Source: Bacteroidota bacterium (GTDB taxonomy: Bacteria > Bacteroidota > Ignavibacteria > Kryptoniales > JAKASW01). Taken from it: a stretch of DNA of 64,000 bases. The translations under genes and the position numbers were made by a program. Of this stretch, positions 46,784 to 53,715 are shown one piece after another (position 1 is the stretch's first letter; each line of letters starts with the position of its first letter). Under the pieces are notes generated by a model that searched no databases, had not been told where the DNA came from, and saw only the letters and a list, made by a program, of their open reading frames with translations. Location: NCBI GenBank assembly GCA_021825585.1, contig JAKAGT010000001.1:186001-250000 (forward strand), in the 5' to 3' direction.

Positions 46784-47464
46784 TTAACGATTGGAGCCAA
46801 ATCCCATTCCCACTTTTGCGGTTAGTGCGAAGAACAAATCCCGCAGTCCGCAATTATCCGTAGCAACGGTGGTATCGTAGCCGGGATAGCCGTATGAGCC
46901 AGGTATATTTTCATGGTAATAATATGTAGCAACGACAGGAAACATGAACTTGATCTCCGGTTCGAAGAAGAATCCGGAGCCGTAGCGCCTGCCAATCCCG
47001 GCGAAATAACTCTTGTAGACCGAAAGCGGCGGTGAGATAGGGTCCCAATCGCTGGTCTCGCCGTACACCCTTCCTAATTCGATCCGGTACCCCCTGATGT
47101 TGAATCCGGCGTATAACGATGAGAAATAAAACTCGGATGGCGGACGCGGTATCTCGTTTCCTGATTCACCGATTATCCCCCCGATAAAAACAGGGGCTAC
47201 CCGAAACTCGGCTCCCAGCCCAAATCCTCCCGACATGGAGAAGAGGCCGACCTTGCTGAAGTGAAGAGAATATGCTTCTCCCTGCGCAAAAAAGTCACCT
47301 CCGACATGACTCACGAAATAATTCCAGCCTTCAGCGAGATAGACACCGCCGCAGGTTACGGAGTCGAGAGTTACAACCTGGATCGAGTCCGACCGGGCTA
47401 ACACCCTCCCGTTATACAACAGATAAGCGACGATAAAGAGAAAACAAAATCGCGAAAGTCTCAT
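46784..47464 (-). CDS. Secreted tandem-family protein, copy 1
   Basis: A 226-residue exported protein, first of four related tandem genes (46784, 47502, 48170, 48885). Signal peptide residues 1-23. The mature protein has YLAEGWNYFVSHVGGDFFAQGEAYSLHFSKVG-type strands, SSLYAGFNIRGYRIELGRVYG, YFAGIGRRYGSGFFFEPEIK and LRDLFFALTAKVG at the C-terminus. Aromatic-rich alternation suggests a beta-barrel or beta-sandwich, but I recognise no family. The C-terminal half is almost the same as in copy 4 (48885). The ATG at 47464 has GGAGG nine bases upstream. Confidence 0.8.
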   Translation of the reverse strand: MRLSRFCFLFIVAYLLYNGRVLARSDSIQVVTLDSVTCGGVYLAEGWNYFVSHVGGDFFAQGEAYSLHFSKVGLFSMSGGFGLGAEFRVAPVFIGGIIGESGNEIPRPPSEFYFSSLYAGFNIRGYRIELGRVYGETSDWDPISPPLSVYKSYFAGIGRRYGSGFFFEPEIKFMFPVVATYYYHENIPGSYGYPGYDTTVATDNCGLRDLFFALTAKVGMGFGSNR

Positions 47465-47501
47465 CCCGCATGCCTCCAATTGAATTTCAGATTAACGAGA
47501 A

Positions 47502-48173
47502 TCAGTTGGCTCCTATTCCCAATTTCAAACCAATCGAGAAGAACAGATCCCTCAGATGGTAATGGCCGACGCCCGGGACGAATCCCTCCAGGGTGTTACC
47601 GGTCGAGTAATGGGAGACGATCGGGAGCATCAGTTTCACATCGGGCTCAAGAAAGAAATAAGAACCGATCCTTCTGCTCACGCCGATGAAAGCGCTTGTG
47701 TAGGTCTGATGAGGCACTTCCATTTCCGTCCAAGCGGTGTTATCACCAAGGACCTCGCCAACCTCCAGGCGATAACCGTGAACGATCGCCCCGCCGTAAA
47801 ATGCGGCGAAGGAGAACATCCCCCAGGGGCCCTGGATTCCCTCGTTACCGCAGAACCCGACATAACTCCCAACGAACACCGGCCGCACCCTTATCTCAAT
47901 ACCCGGCCCGCCGCCGGATGTCGGCGGAGAGAAGGTGTTGAGATTGAATCCGTATATCTCATACGTGATGAACAAATCGCCTCCGACCTGTTTCGATATC
48001 CAGTTCCAGCCTGTGGTGATTTGCTCCCAGCCGTAGGTTATGGAATCTTTGGGTGCCACGCGGCTCGTGTCTGATTGTGCTCGCACGTTACCCGCACACA
48101 AGGGAAAAACGACGGATAGAGTCAACAATAACGCGCTCCGCGATGTCTTATGTTTTTCAGTCTCGATTATCAT
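47502..48173 (-). CDS. Secreted tandem-family protein, copy 2
   Basis: A 223-residue relative of the gene at 46784, more diverged. It has a signal peptide followed by QSDTSRVAPKDSITYG, then GWNWISKQVGGDLFITYEIYGFNL, VFVGSYVGFCGNEG, HGYRLEVGEVLGD, IGSYFFLEPDVKLMLPIV and LRDLFFSIGLKLG. The ATG at 48173 overlaps the stop of copy 3 by ATGA, so copies 3 and 2 are translated in series. Likely outer-membrane or periplasmic; function unknown. Confidence 0.8.
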   Translation of the reverse strand: MIIETEKHKTSRSALLLTLSVVFPLCAGNVRAQSDTSRVAPKDSITYGWEQITTGWNWISKQVGGDLFITYEIYGFNLNTFSPPTSGGGPGIEIRVRPVFVGSYVGFCGNEGIQGPWGMFSFAAFYGGAIVHGYRLEVGEVLGDNTAWTEMEVPHQTYTSAFIGVSRRIGSYFFLEPDVKLMLPIVSHYSTGNTLEGFVPGVGHYHLRDLFFSIGLKLGIGAN

Positions 48174-48853
48174 CGACAATAGCCAAGTCCCAGACCCACT
48201 TTGACGCTGAAAGAGATGAACAGGTCACTCACCCTGTAATGTTCGATCTTGACGACATTGTAACTCGGCGGTCCGACAGTGTAATAACCCGCATCGACCG
48301 GGAACATCAACCTCACTTCGGGTTCTATGAAGGCGTTAGTGCCGTACCGCCGGCTTAAACCTGCGAAGTAGGTCTTGAAGGTCACTTCTGGTGAACCCAT
48401 ATCGGTACCAAGAAAATAGCCATAGATTTCTCCGGCTTCGGCACGGTAACCACCAGTAATTACACCGGCGTATAATGATGAACAAACAAAAGGTCCCGGT
48501 GGTCTGGGGCGCATTTCATTGCTCGACCAGGTATAAACATAACCGGCGAAGACCGGCTTGAACCGCACCTCTACACCATACCCACCGCCCCCCGTCAGGG
48601 AGAGAAAGCCGACTCTTCCAAAGTGAAATGTGTACGCCTCGCCGGTGAGGTACAGATCGGCCCCGACATTATTCCATAGAAAATTCGCAAACGCCCTCTG
48701 CCCTTTCGCAATCGCGTTCGGGTTGTAGCCGCTGGAATCTGCGGCTGCGACGCGGCTCGAATCGGACTGCGCCATCGCGGTACCGCCGAGCAATGTAAGG
48801 GCAACCATGACCGTCAAAAAGTGAGTCTTTCGATTTGCAGCTTGATTCCGCAT
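48170..48853 (-). CDS. Secreted tandem-family protein, copy 3
   Basis: A 227-residue member of the same family. The signal peptide (FLTVMVALTLLGGTAMAQ) precedes SDSSRVAAADSSGYNPNAIAKG, nearly the same leader as copy 4. Shared blocks are GADLYLTGEAYTFHFGRVGF, SSLYAGVITGGYRAEAGEIYG, YFAGLSRRYGTNAFIEPEVRLMFPV and VSDLFISFSVKVG. It lies 31 bases downstream of copy 4 and overlaps copy 2. Confidence 0.8.
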   Translation of the reverse strand: MRNQAANRKTHFLTVMVALTLLGGTAMAQSDSSRVAAADSSGYNPNAIAKGQRAFANFLWNNVGADLYLTGEAYTFHFGRVGFLSLTGGGGYGVEVRFKPVFAGYVYTWSSNEMRPRPPGPFVCSSLYAGVITGGYRAEAGEIYGYFLGTDMGSPEVTFKTYFAGLSRRYGTNAFIEPEVRLMFPVDAGYYTVGPPSYNVVKIEHYRVSDLFISFSVKVGLGLGYCR

Positions 48854-48884
48854 ACGTAATCCTCTTGTTGTTAGCGATTTAGCG

Positions 48885-49580
48885 TCAATGATCGGAGACC
48901 AAACATACTCCCACTTTTACGCTCAATGCGAAGAACAGATCCCGCAGGCCGGAATTATCCGTACCAACGGCGGTATCGTAGCCGGGATAGCCGTATGAGC
49001 CGGGTATGTTTTCATGGTAATAATATGTAGCAACGACAGGGAACATGAACTTGATCTCCGGTTCGAAGAAAAAGCCGGAGCCGTACCGCCTACCGATCCC
49101 CGCGAAATAACTCTTGTAGGCCGCTAGCGGAGGCGGGTGCGTTGATAATAGGGTGTTGGTCACGCCATAGACGTTTCCGAATTCGATACGGTAGCCGTCG
49201 ATCATAAATCCTGCGTATAGCGATGAGTAGTAGAAAACAGAGGGCTGACGCGGTATCTCGTTGCCGGATGTTCCAATAATGCCCCCAATGAACACGGGAG
49301 CAACCCGGACCTCGGTTCCGAGCCCGACAGCACCCGACATGGAGAAGAAACCGACCCTCCTGAAGTGAAGCGAATACGCTTCACCCGTCGCGAAGAGATC
49401 GAATCCGAAGTGGTTTGCGAGATAATCCGCGATCTGCTCCTGCCCTTCCGCGATCGCGTCGGGGTTGTACCCGCTCGAATCCGCCGGCGCAACGCGGGTC
49501 GTATCCGACTGTGTGCGCGCAGCGATTGGAACCAGTAAAATACCGATTACACCAATCATTAGAACGAGTCTGTCTCTCAC
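48885..49580 (-). CDS. Secreted tandem-family protein, copy 4
   Basis: A 231-residue member, the most upstream of the four on the minus strand. I take the GTG at 49580 as start: AAGGAG lies eight bases upstream and the product then begins with a clean signal peptide (RLVLMIGVIGILLVPIAARTQ). A longer frame upstream lacks protein character. Residues about 160-210 (YFAGIGRRYGSG ... YYYHENIPGSYGYPGYDT) are nearly identical to copy 1, while copies 2 and 3 differ there. Confidence 0.78.
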   Translation of the reverse strand: MRDRLVLMIGVIGILLVPIAARTQSDTTRVAPADSSGYNPDAIAEGQEQIADYLANHFGFDLFATGEAYSLHFRRVGFFSMSGAVGLGTEVRVAPVFIGGIIGTSGNEIPRQPSVFYYSSLYAGFMIDGYRIEFGNVYGVTNTLLSTHPPPLAAYKSYFAGIGRRYGSGFFFEPEIKFMFPVVATYYYHENIPGSYGYPGYDTAVGTDNSGLRDLFFALSVKVGVCLVSDH

Positions 49581-49632
49581 TCGTAATTCTCCTTCGTTTT
49601 CACCTGTCATGAGTTCAATCCGCCTTCCGCCC

Positions 49633-50109
49633 TCAAAAAGTTCTTCCCATGGAGACTCCTCCCCACTCAACAACTCCGCCGTTCCAGAACAAGGGGGTGA
49701 AATCAACTCTGAACACGATGCCTCCGGAATCGGGCTGATATCTGAAACCTAACGTGCCGACCCACATGTCCGGACCCGGATTCGCGTAGCTTGAGAAGAA
49801 CGGCTTACCTTCAGGCGTGGTGAATCCGATGAGAGCACCGAACCCTATTTCGACATAATCAGGATTGGATCCGAGAAGAAGATTCGCCATCACGGGAAAA
49901 CCGGTAATTAAGGACCATGTCGTGAACCCGACCCTGAACCCCAACTGCCTTGTAATCCGGCGGTCGTAGTTTATCTAATACAACCCTGCAACACCAAAGC
50001 CTTCGACATATACCGCGTTCTGCTCGAAATGTACCGTTTTGTCCGCAGTTGATTGAGCTCTCGCAGTGAGCGAGGCGAGCAACACAACGAGGATAACGGG
50101 TCTGGCCAT
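49633..50109 (-). pseudogene. Secreted two-member-family protein interrupted by in-frame TAG
   Basis: The frame starts at the ATG at 50109, with AAGGTG upstream, and encodes a signal peptide (RPVILVVLLASLTARAQ) followed by NAVYVEGFGVAGLY. It then meets TAG at 49977-49975 (codon 45) and continues in the same frame with INYDRRITRQLGFRVGFTTW to FWNGGVVEWGGVSMGRTF. The intact paralogue at 50243 reads GMLYSVNYDHRITKEIGFRVGFTTW, so TAG replaces a TCG serine codon. This is the only lesion. It may be a recent nonsense mutation, a base error or a read-through site. Confidence 0.75.
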
Positions 50110-50242
50110 TGATCACCTTCTTTTGGGGACGCTCATTACTCCTTTCTCACAATTTCGTTCCGCAGGCACCACCATCTTTGCTAAAAGACTGCAAGATGTT
50201 CTTCTCGGATATCGGTTCCAGATTCTATCAGTTCTCCCTCAT

Positions 50243-50755
50243 TCAAAACGCATACCCGAATGAGATCCCGCCATACGGTTGAAACTTGTCATAGGCCCAA
50301 AAAGGCGTGAAACCTATTCTGAATAAGAAGCCACCGTTTTCTGGTTGGTACCTATAAGCGAGTGTGCCGGTGCCCCAGAGCGCGCCCTTACTCGGACCAC
50401 CCGCAAAGAAGGAATGCGTGGGACGCGTTGATCCCGGTAGAGTAAGGTAACCGGGAACCACACCTATTCCTATTTCAATGAAGTTGTTCGGTCCACCGAC
50501 AAGGTAATTCACCGTAAGAGGAAGCGCCGTGAACCAGGCCCATGTTGTGAAGCCAACCCTGAAGCCTATCTCTTTCGTAATCCGGTGGTCGTAATTAACC
50601 GAGTACAGCATTCCTGGTCCCAGAAGCTCCAGATATACCGCGTTGCGCGAAAAACGGCTGTCTTCCTCCTTTGCCGGGTGAGCTCTCGCGGGTACGGATA
50701 CCAACATCAGCATCAGGAGAACAACAAGAATCTTTGAATATCCTTTCTTTTGCAT
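50243..50755 (-). CDS. Secreted two-member-family protein (intact copy)
   Basis: A 170-residue exported protein of unknown family. Signal peptide residues about 1-25 (ILVVLLMLMLVSVPARA). The mature protein has NAVYLELLGPGMLYSVNYDHR, IGFRVGFTTWAWF, FIEIGIGVVPGYL, LAYRYQPENGGFLFRIGFTPFW and GGISFGYAF. The pattern, including the aromatic last residue, is that of a small outer-membrane beta barrel. It is the intact relative of the interrupted gene at 49633. AAAGGTG precedes the ATG. Confidence 0.8.
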   Translation of the reverse strand: MQKKGYSKILVVLLMLMLVSVPARAHPAKEEDSRFSRNAVYLELLGPGMLYSVNYDHRITKEIGFRVGFTTWAWFTALPLTVNYLVGGPNNFIEIGIGVVPGYLTLPGSTRPTHSFFAGGPSKGALWGTGTLAYRYQPENGGFLFRIGFTPFWAYDKFQPYGGISFGYAF

Positions 50756-51079: not shown

Positions 51080-52228
51080 TCAATATGCATAGACGGTTTG
51101 GTATTGATTCTGCGACACCCAGGTTTGAATTGACCAGCAAGCTGTCGCACCGGATGTCGATGGGTCAACAGGGCCTGTGTAAACTCCGTTATTCAACACG
51201 CCGTAATATGTTCCCTCAACGTCAGATGAGGTCGGCACGAACGTAACGTTATTCTGCAGACACACGTACTTGGCCTGTTCGAGTAATTGATACTGTCCTA
51301 AGAAGCCAGCCTGGTAAGCATACTGTGCAAAACCGTCCACTTCCGCCCAACTCCATCCACTTGGGAGGTAAAGCGCAAAATTCGTTATCGGAGTCCCTAT
51401 ATGCCCATTGGTGATCCAGTCGACCACAGTTTGAACATTTCGTTCAGAGTATGTCGGCATTACGAATATCGTGTTAAACTTAGGGGTTCCAGAAAACCAA
51501 TTAAGAAACTCATCGTAGTCTTGTCCGACATAACAGCCAATTCCTGCCATCCCATCAAGATTTTCTGAATTGTCGGCGTCACACATTGTGTAATCAGCAT
51601 TGTCGAGCATCGGTACGTCTGCAAGATGATAATTATGAGCAGCGAAATAGAGTACGTCTGAAATTACCCCCGTATCGTAATCATCCAACCAGAGTTGGTC
51701 ACCGTAAGAATGGACTTCTTGTGCCACTTTTTGCATAGTCGCCCCAGTGACAAAGCCGGAGGGTTCATCGACCATAAACCCGAGAAACCGCACTGGGGCA
51801 GGAGGACCATAGTTTAATATCTCGTCTTGCCAATTCAAATCGAGACCCTGGTATCCGATCAGCAGGATAATCTGATTCTGAGCAAAACCGGCATTAACGT
51901 AGTCCGCCCAGCTGCCAGGTGTACAAATAATCCTCGTAAAGCCGTAATGGTTATGCAATTCCGCAAGCTGGTCCGAGGTGTAACTTCCAGCTTCAAGCAT
52001 AGTATACGTGCCGTTGTGAGACGTTGCCGGCACCCAGTTCACGAGAAACCACTCAGTCCCTCCGTACGCAATTGCCCCTTGCTGATATGATGGTATCAAT
52101 GGAATGACGCCGGAAACCGCTTTGCGCTTACCTGTGCCGGCCGCGGATGTTGAATCCGCCCTGGCCGACGCGCTCGGTGCCGTCGGCGACTCTGAAACAC
52201 TGAGCTTCTGACTGCATGACTGGAGCAA
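51080..52228 (-). CDS. Putative surface lipoprotein, frame held off its start by a CAAG tract
   Basis: The long frame encodes about 382 residues from LLQSCSQK onward. LLQSC is a lipobox with the cysteine for lipid attachment. A Ser/Ala-rich linker and a globular domain with AYGGTEWFLVNWVPA, HYGFTRIICTPG and VRFLGFMVDEPSG follow; the last resembles a glycoside-hydrolase barrel strand, though no family is certain. The only in-frame start nearby is a TTG at 52228, too late for an export signal. A well-placed ATG at 52298 (GGAGGG four bases upstream) is one base out of frame. With four instead of five CAAG units (52258-52277) it would read directly into the signal peptide. Confidence 0.75.
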   Translation of the reverse strand: MLQSCSQKLSVSESPTAPSASARADSTSAAGTGKRKAVSGVIPLIPSYQQGAIAYGGTEWFLVNWVPATSHNGTYTMLEAGSYTSDQLAELHNHYGFTRIICTPGSWADYVNAGFAQNQIILLIGYQGLDLNWQDEILNYGPPAPVRFLGFMVDEPSGFVTGATMQKVAQEVHSYGDQLWLDDYDTGVISDVLYFAAHNYHLADVPMLDNADYTMCDADNSENLDGMAGIGCYVGQDYDEFLNWFSGTPKFNTIFVMPTYSERNVQTVVDWITNGHIGTPITNFALYLPSGWSWAEVDGFAQYAYQAGFLGQYQLLEQAKYVCLQNNVTFVPTSSDVEGTYYGVLNNGVYTGPVDPSTSGATACWSIQTWVSQNQYQTVYAY

Positions 52229-52257
52229 CGCAAGGCTGAGAATTAAGAAGAATATTC

Positions 52258-52277
52258 CTTGCTTGCTTGCTTGCTTG
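52258..52277 (-). repeat. Tetranucleotide tract (CAAG)5
   Basis: Five uninterrupted CTTG units on the plus strand (CAAG on the coding strand) lie between an ATG with a strong ribosome site (52298) and the lipoprotein frame. The tract length sets the reading frame: 4 or 7 units would be in frame, 5 is out. Confidence 0.9.
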
Positions 52278-52309
52278 CTTGCCTACCTGTAACGTACTTC
52301 ATTTTACCC

Positions 52310-52947
52310 TCCGTTTGGTTTAGAGCACGTGCTGGAACAAGGGATGAAACAATCCTGACCCGATGCCGGGACTATTCCCTGTTGGATCCTGGTTTCTGCA
52401 CCCGCTCCTTAGATAGTTGTACTTTTGGGGAGGCACCCTTGTGACGCACAAAGTGCGTATCCGTTGTCACAACTGCATCCCTTTTACCCTGAAGCATTTA
52501 TTTGTCCGTTACTTTGTGCCCTTCGCTATCTAAACCCACTCCCGGCTTCCACAATGTATCCACCAAAGCCGGGTTACGATACCACATTATAACGATGCCC
52601 ACGGTTTAATGCAACTTACTAATCTCGTCAGGGTGTGCGACAAATTTGTAAAAAGCAATAGATTAACCACATAGGCACATTAGAAAACATAGATTTATTC
52701 GCTAATGTGCCCTATGTGCCTATGTGTTTTATATTTTTGTCGCAGACCGTAACCCCTCACTTATGGTTTCTGGCCAAGCCGTAAAGATCGCAAAGCGAAC
52801 CGCTCGTCAACATTTCTTTGCGTTCTTGGCGCCTTTGCGAGAGAAATAACCCTTTCAGTGAGGCATTACCGCAGACCCATCTCGTCAGTTGTTGTTTTCG
52901 TCTCCAGGCCTTAAGTTTTCAGAAGACAGAACAGGATAAATAAAAGA
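52310..52947. other. Intergenic region rich in palindromic repeats
   Basis: About 640 bases with no supportable gene. It holds the CACATAGGCACATTAG inverted repeat (52668-52726) and, near 52790-52850, a further imperfect repeat of the type AAAGATCGCAAAGCG ... TTTGCGTTCTTGGCGCCTTTGCG. The stretch 52440-52520 has GACGCACAAAGTGCGTATC-like short palindromes. Confidence 0.5.
52668..52726. repeat. Inverted repeat CACATAGGCACATTAG
   Basis: The left arm CACATAGGCACATTAG (52668-52683) is complementary to the right arm CTAATGTGCC...TATGTG (52702-52726), which carries a 9-base internal duplication (CTATGTGCC). The 18-base loop is AT-rich. It is a hairpin-forming dispersed element rather than a terminator, as no gene ends here. 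Confidence 0.6.
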
Positions 52948-53715
52948 ATGCGACCTCCAGAAGTACGGCAAAAGAGTCCAAACACAGAGACACGGAGACA
53001 CAGAGTTTCAATATCAGGATTATTCCCTCCGTGTCTCTGTGTCTCCAGTGGTTTAATTCCCACTCGCAGACGGTTTTCGGCCACGTCCCTTGTATTGCTG
53101 TTGTTGTTCGCCGCGGCGACAACCGCCTTTGCGTCGGAGCCGACGGCGTCGCAGATAGTAAAGAACGTCCAGGAGAACTATGACAGGACCAGCGACGCCA
53201 CCATTCAGTTCACCCAGACTGTCGTCTATCCGCTCTCAAAGCTGTCAAAGACGATTTCGGGGACCCTCTACATCGCGAAGGGTAACAAGTACCGGATCGA
53301 AACCGGGGACAAGGTTATAGTCACCGACGGCAAGACTTCGTGGGTTTACATGCCCGGCTCGAAACAGGTCGTAATAGACAACTTCCGGAACGATAAGAAC
53401 ACGATAACTCCCGAGAAATTCCTGCTCGACGTCCCGTCGGACTACTTTGCGGTGCTGTTATCGACACAGAAAGGGCGAGATGGAAACAGCTATACGCTGC
53501 GTCTTACACCGAAGAGCGACAACTCTTTCATCCGCTCCATAACCATCGTCATCAACCCGGACTGGACCGTGAAGAGCGCCGTGGTCTCCGACATGAACGA
53601 CACGAAATATACATATACCGTGAACGATCTCAAGGTAAATACGGGTTTGCCCGGTACCGAGTTCGAATTCGTTCCTCCCAAGGGCACGCAAGTAGTCGAC
53701 TTACGCCAGCATTGA
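52948..53715 (+). CDS. lolA: Outer-membrane lipoprotein carrier protein LolA-like
   Basis: A periplasmic carrier that ferries lipoproteins to the outer membrane. The LolA core runs from ASQIVKNVQENYDRTSD through GTLYIAKGNKYRIETGDK, VTDGKTSWVYMPGSKQVVI and LLDVPSDYFAVLL to LKVNTGLPGTEFEFVPPKGTQVVDL. A normal signal peptide (SLVLLLLFAAATTAFA) begins only near residue 48. The ATG at 52948 is the only in-frame ATG, and the 40 residues before the signal are encoded largely by a palindromic repeat (52982-53042). The natural start probably lies closer to RRRFSATSL or was lost when the repeat inserted. Confidence 0.85.
   Translation: MRPPEVRQKSPNTETRRHRVSISGLFPPCLCVSSGLIPTRRRFSATSLVLLLLFAAATTAFASEPTASQIVKNVQENYDRTSDATIQFTQTVVYPLSKLSKTISGTLYIAKGNKYRIETGDKVIVTDGKTSWVYMPGSKQVVIDNFRNDKNTITPEKFLLDVPSDYFAVLLSTQKGRDGNSYTLRLTPKSDNSFIRSITIVINPDWTVKSAVVSDMNDTKYTYTVNDLKVNTGLPGTEFEFVPPKGTQVVDLRQH
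52982..53042. repeat. Inverted repeat ACACAGAGACACGGAG at the lolA 5' end
   Basis: A perfect 16-bp inverted repeat: ACACAGAGACACGGAG (52982-52997) and CTCCGTGTCTCTGTGT (53027-53042) around a 29-base spacer. This ACACAGAGACACGGAG-type element is widespread in unrelated bacterial genomes, as I recall. Here it overlaps the 5' end of the lolA frame. Confidence 0.65.

Follow-up and report, generated by a model that had tools for sequence, protein, structure and literature searches.

Contingency loci built on repeat tracts have been described chiefly in bacteria adapted to a host, among them Neisseria and Haemophilus. The Opa proteins of Neisseria are outer-membrane barrels. In Neisseria gonorrhoeae, each of about 11 opa copies has a CTCTT tract of its own in the part coding for the leader (PMC3745409). 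The autB/autA genes of Neisseria meningitidis contain an AAGC repeat in the region coding for the signal sequence; phase-dependent expression has been shown for autB, and 2-22 units have been observed (PMC5118866). The Mycoplasma vlhA genes, which encode variable lipoproteins, are reported to have GAA repeats in their promoters (PMC6258824).

We analysed a 64-kb stretch of DNA, hereafter the window (G000:C26:186001-250000), which belongs to a 4.97-Mb Bacteroidota assembly of 88 contigs and contains a predicted lipoprotein gene with a CAAG tract close behind its start codon. The sequence makes it very probable that this tract switches translation ON and OFF as a contingency locus, and that it is one of several such switches in a multi-copy lipoprotein family. 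AAGC is CAAG in another register, and the likeness to autB extends to the position of the repeat (directly behind the start codon and within the region coding for the signal sequence), to low unit numbers, to ON and OFF states set by frame, with switching in our case a prediction, and to OFF genes that are otherwise mostly intact. AutB, however, is an autotransporter from a species that lives in humans as commensal and as pathogen, whereas the genes described here encode multi-copy Bacteroidota lipoproteins, with no sequence relation found. The likeness to opa lies in the several copies of one family, each with its own leader-region tract and its own ON/OFF state. It differs in that the repeat is a pentamer there and a tetramer here, that a single array contains six of our eight tract copies, and that switching would here affect a predicted lipoprotein, with barrels encoded alongside, rather than a barrel itself. 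The vlhA system shares with our family the multi-gene lipoproteins and the repeat-associated expression, but its repeat is in the promoter, while the CAAG tract is in the coding sequence and would act on translation. The CAAG family resembles Neisseria Opa and AutB in anatomy and is a member of neither protein family; Pfam, NCBIfam and PDB searches and a low-confidence alpha/beta model of the switched protein gave no homology to autotransporters or Opa barrels.

Searches of the open-access literature for Bacteroidetes lipoproteins with repeat-tract phase variation turned up no published counterpart, which is weak evidence of absence. We consider it possible, at slightly less than even chances, that a Bacteroidota lineage independently evolved an Opa-like system of at least eight lipoprotein genes, each with its own CAAG switch, six of them arrayed with barrels and their middle segments diversified by cassette exchange. 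A clone with such a system could take up to 2^8 states, presumably as a defence against phages or predators and not against host immunity. The set of contingency loci would be a whole one, confined to one gene family, in a Bacteroidota genus whose two named relatives are metagenome bins. If these genes do switch, the family offers a direct way to test whether varying envelope proteins in combination also pays where host immunity plays no part, for instance against phages.

Proposed switch region of the window copy

All features of the window copy lie on the minus strand. A Shine-Dalgarno sequence, GGAGGG (52307..52312), stands 4 nt ahead of the ATG start codon (52300..52302), whose translation begins MKYVTGRQASK..., and the sequence CGGAGGSTRAWATGAA around this ribosome-binding site is common to nine family copies in the source genome and two in genome G006. 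The proposed switch follows as a perfect (CAAG)6 tract (52258..52281). Tandem Repeats Finder reported it as CTTG, with 6.2 perfect copies at 52258-52282, the top-scoring array in the window, and it is the sole tetranucleotide array within these 64 kb. On the minus strand the region reads ...AAACCAAACGGAGGGTAAAATGAAGTACGTTACAGGTAGG(CAAG)6GAATATTCTTCTTAATTCTCAGCCTTGCGTTGCTCCAGTCATGCAGT.... The predicted signal-peptide core and lipobox, GIFFLILSLALLQSC (52214..52258, Cys codon at 52216-52214), open a lipoprotein frame of 392 codons from GGA plus a stop (51080..52258), which belongs to no Pfam or NCBIfam family. After GIFFLILSLALLQSC, the lipoprotein runs about 377 residues in a frame that differs from that of the ATG.

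The sequenced window copy is OFF. In its six-unit state the product ends after 19 codons at a TAA (52243..52245), and losing two units or gaining one restores the frame. With 4, 7 or 10 units, the ATG is in frame and yields 404, 408 or 412 residues, respectively; with 5, 6 or 8 units, the lipoprotein is not read from the ATG, and a five-unit allele would stop at a TAA at 52130-52128, after 56 codons. We found no usable start in the lipoprotein frame of the window copy. Directly 5' of the tract, a TAG in that frame (52283..52285) blocks starts further upstream, and the sole candidate, a TTG at 52228, omits the signal core, its translation beginning with MLQSC.

An earlier, sequence-only reading of this locus had recognized its layout and erred in the count. 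The elements that it named are all present: an ATG preceded by a good ribosome-binding site, a CAAG tract without imperfections, and, in a frame other than that of the ATG, a signal sequence with lipobox that leads into a long ORF. Its logic stands, with the arithmetic moved by one unit. It put the ATG at 52298 and counted five units instead of six, and three further values had to be revised: the distance from the ATG to the TTG at 52228 is 74 nt, not 70; the frame is regained by a change of -2 or +1 units, not -1 or +2; and the current state stops at 52245-52243, not at 52130-52128.

Scans of the region for sigma-70 promoters and terminators gave counts no higher than in shuffles, and an Rfam scan for a leader RNA or riboswitch returned only a chance mir-999 match, located on an inverted repeat. 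Two inverted repeats, REP- or MITE-like, are sited between the lipoprotein gene and lolA (52985-53047 and 52640-52730 of the window), with the arms ACACAGAG / CTCTGTGT and cacataggcacat / atgtgcctatgtg.

CAAG tracts in paralogues and related genomes

A translated search of the source genome gave 13 matches to the protein, including about eleven full-length members (the window copy among them). The copy on contig C57 is truncated. Apart from one weak match in the order, the family was found only in the genus. A genome-wide repeat search, covering the CAAG unit only, retrieved eight tracts with the pattern CAAGCAAGCAAGCAAG (15 overlapping matches) and none with the reversed control pattern. All eight tracts of at least four units in the 4.97-Mb genome are located directly after the ATG of a lipoprotein-family member, and each starts 18-21 nt from the start of that ATG. 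They are perfect short repeats, with a unit that is not a multiple of three, between the start codon and the remaining ORF. No tract of at least four units was found in 12 other genomes of the genus. The tract is more than chance, because all eight occupy the same place in one family, while the control pattern gave 0 matches and the 12 genomes none.

In the assembly, four of the eight tract copies are ON, namely C63:62137, C63:65213 and C6:37937 with four units each and C63:55808 with six, whose distal sequence requires 0 modulo 3. The other four are OFF: C63:53747, C63:58654 and C63:68774, with five units each, and the window copy with six. By inspection, the ON copies read MKYHLKQASKQGVFFLILSLALFQSC and similar, with a basic n-region, a hydrophobic core and a lipobox with its Cys. 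Contig C63 carries six of the eight tract copies in one array, in which genes for small predicted outer-membrane barrels are interspersed. On one side of this array is a complete radC-like gene and on the other a radC-like copy that lacks its 5' end (L009:2075-2800 and L010:10808-11198); the two are 85% identical over 391 bp, and the array may have originated at a duplicated radC or been inserted into one.

Unit number differs between copies whose surroundings are otherwise the same. C63:58654 (five units, OFF) and C63:62137 (four units, ON) have the same sequence over the 312 bp that precede the ATG and the 82 bp that follow the tract, so that one CAAG is their sole difference there and separates the ON from the OFF copy. 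Likewise, C63:55808 (six units, ON) and C63:68774 (five units, OFF) share 248 identical bp downstream. A positional relative of the window copy is present on JAMCXB010000016.1, from a second MAG (Bacteroidetes bacterium FK_Sedi_B_Bin.45). Its ATG, ribosome-binding site and signal core are nearly the same as in the window, with two units against six, and the lipoprotein is out of frame in both. The locus flank that carries the LolA and LPG_synthase_TM genes is 94.8% identical over 2,454 bp between the two genomes, and the opposite flank, with barrel genes, is 99.5% identical over 2,423 bp. Between paralogues and between genomes, the unit number shifts while the flanks stay, and among paralogues the frame moves with it.

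Short tracts occur in relatives, with two units on G006:C70, CAAGCAAAGG on C77 and G006:C17, and one unit in the truncated G011:C27 copy. All of them are out of frame, and they may be locked OFF, decayed or dead ends. The copy with the degenerate tract CAAGCAAAGG (L053/L038; G000:C77 and G006:C17), out of frame with its own ATG, is identical in the two genomes over 384 codons and 99.0% identical over 4,155 bp. This copy may be locked OFF or using another start.

In the mechanism that we propose, each tract copy has a ribosome-binding site, an ATG and a short basic leader (MKYHLKQASKQ...), with the CAAG tract within the n-region of the signal peptide and, 3' of it, the hydrophobic core, the lipobox and about 380 residues. 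One CAAG gained or lost during replication, presumably by slipped-strand mispairing, would shift the frame, and the change would probably be reversible. In most copies, unit numbers of 1 modulo 3 put the ATG in frame with the lipoprotein and its entire signal peptide, and in the two IVQLILAV copies numbers of 0 modulo 3 do so; other numbers would yield a peptide of 13-43 residues. The benefit would most likely be escape from phages or grazers, or altered surface binding. With four of the eight tract copies ON and four OFF, a population could display many combinations. For a contingency locus with a tetranucleotide unit, 4-6 units make a short tract, and switching may therefore be infrequent.

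Selection on the OFF copies and alternative explanations

The sequence-only reading had also proposed a contingency switch, caught in its OFF state in the sequenced clone. Its proposal gains support from eight paralogues with 4-6 units, in and out of frame, from the paralogue pair with identical flanks and one unit of difference, from the positional relative with two units against six, and from OFF copies that retain open, constrained frames. Unit number, which it proposed to count in related genomes, varies among the paralogues and between the window and JAMCXB010000016.1; none of the genus's 12 other genomes has a tract of at least four units.

Beyond the tract, all four OFF copies are intact to the conserved C-terminus, without any other lesion. 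They have about 370-415 open codons, and changes are concentrated at third codon positions. Between the window copy and C63:58654, both OFF, mismatches number 98, 80 and 203 at codon positions 1, 2 and 3, and amino-acid identity is 0.65, compared with 0.41 in a neutral simulation (maximum 0.45 of 300). The same number of changes introduced a mean of 13 stop codons in that simulation. For the copy pairs that allowed an estimate of dS, dN/dS was 0.09-0.31. The OFF copies thus show selection on protein sequence, which is evidence for use of the frame behind the tract. The purifying selection is a long-time average, in keeping with a gene that spends part of its time ON.

This constraint bears directly on the possibility that the window copy, like the other copies read out of frame, is a pseudogene in decay, the tract being a relic of duplication that has lost its switching. 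Such decay would account for the short-tract relatives, all of them out of frame, and for the truncation of the G011:C27 and C57 copies. It is nonetheless improbable, since the four OFF tract copies are all intact, their codon-position pattern and amino-acid conservation exceed the neutral expectation, and a difference of one unit separates ON from OFF copies that share their flanks. Under the contingency switch, annotation pipelines would call half of the lipoprotein family pseudogenes or assign it wrong starts.

Less probable still is that the lipoprotein is made in every tract state, through ribosomal frameshifting on the repeat or a rare start in the lipoprotein frame. The out-of-frame state does recur among relatives, and ATA and ATT codons and one CTG are present in that frame, but the OFF copies have no ATG, GTG or TTG ahead of the hydrophobic core, and the only TTG, at 52228, gives a product without the signal core. 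A programmed frameshift was rejected, given that offsets 0, 1 and 2 all occur among copies and no single programmed shift would serve them. Finally, that the unit numbers are assembly errors masking one fixed in-frame number is scarcely credible: although identical stretches among paralogues could be mis-joined in a draft of 88 contigs, the tract spans at most 24 nt, well within any read, the numbers vary at eight loci, and the independent JAMCXB010000016.1 is also changed and out of frame.

Predicted lipoprotein, predicted neighbouring barrels and probable cassette exchange

Sequence searches of Pfam, NCBIfam and PDB with the lipoprotein gave nothing significant. An AlphaFold2 model built from a three-row alignment has a mean pLDDT of 41 and alternating strands and helices, and Foldseek lists TIM-barrel enzymes for it, which suggests, at low confidence, a TIM-barrel-like fold. 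Naming the protein an enzyme from this model was rejected, as the evidence is too weak. The protein is presumably lipidated and surface-exposed, and we infer an outer-membrane lipoprotein whose presence or absence would matter to phages, predators or binding.

Two genes for predicted outer-membrane proteins lie downstream of the lipoprotein gene, on the same minus strand. The first (50243..50755) encodes a small protein, and similar genes follow the C63 paralogues. The second (48885..49706) belongs to a family that accompanies the lipoprotein paralogues, and its product is predicted, with moderate confidence, to be an 8-strand beta-barrel of the OmpA, NspA or Ail kind; a fold search gave OmpA/NspA-like structures. 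Alongside the lipoprotein clusters (window 46786-50755; L009, L010, L013-L015) lie small outer-membrane barrels, also predicted, from several families. These families have multiple copies as well, and K(V/L)G(I/L)G motifs are conserved at their C-termini.

Family copies resemble one another at both ends of the gene and diverge in the middle. In 30-codon blocks, the identity of C63:55808 and C63:68774 is 100, 100 and 98%, then 39-53% and then 79-87%. Compared with JAMCXB010000016.1, a block of the window at about 52461-49506, comprising the lipoprotein and the first barrel, is diverged or replaced, between flanks that are 95-99.5% identical. As judged from these alignments, cassette exchange is likely behind both the divergent middles and the replaced block, and would have moved the lipoprotein and the first barrel together.
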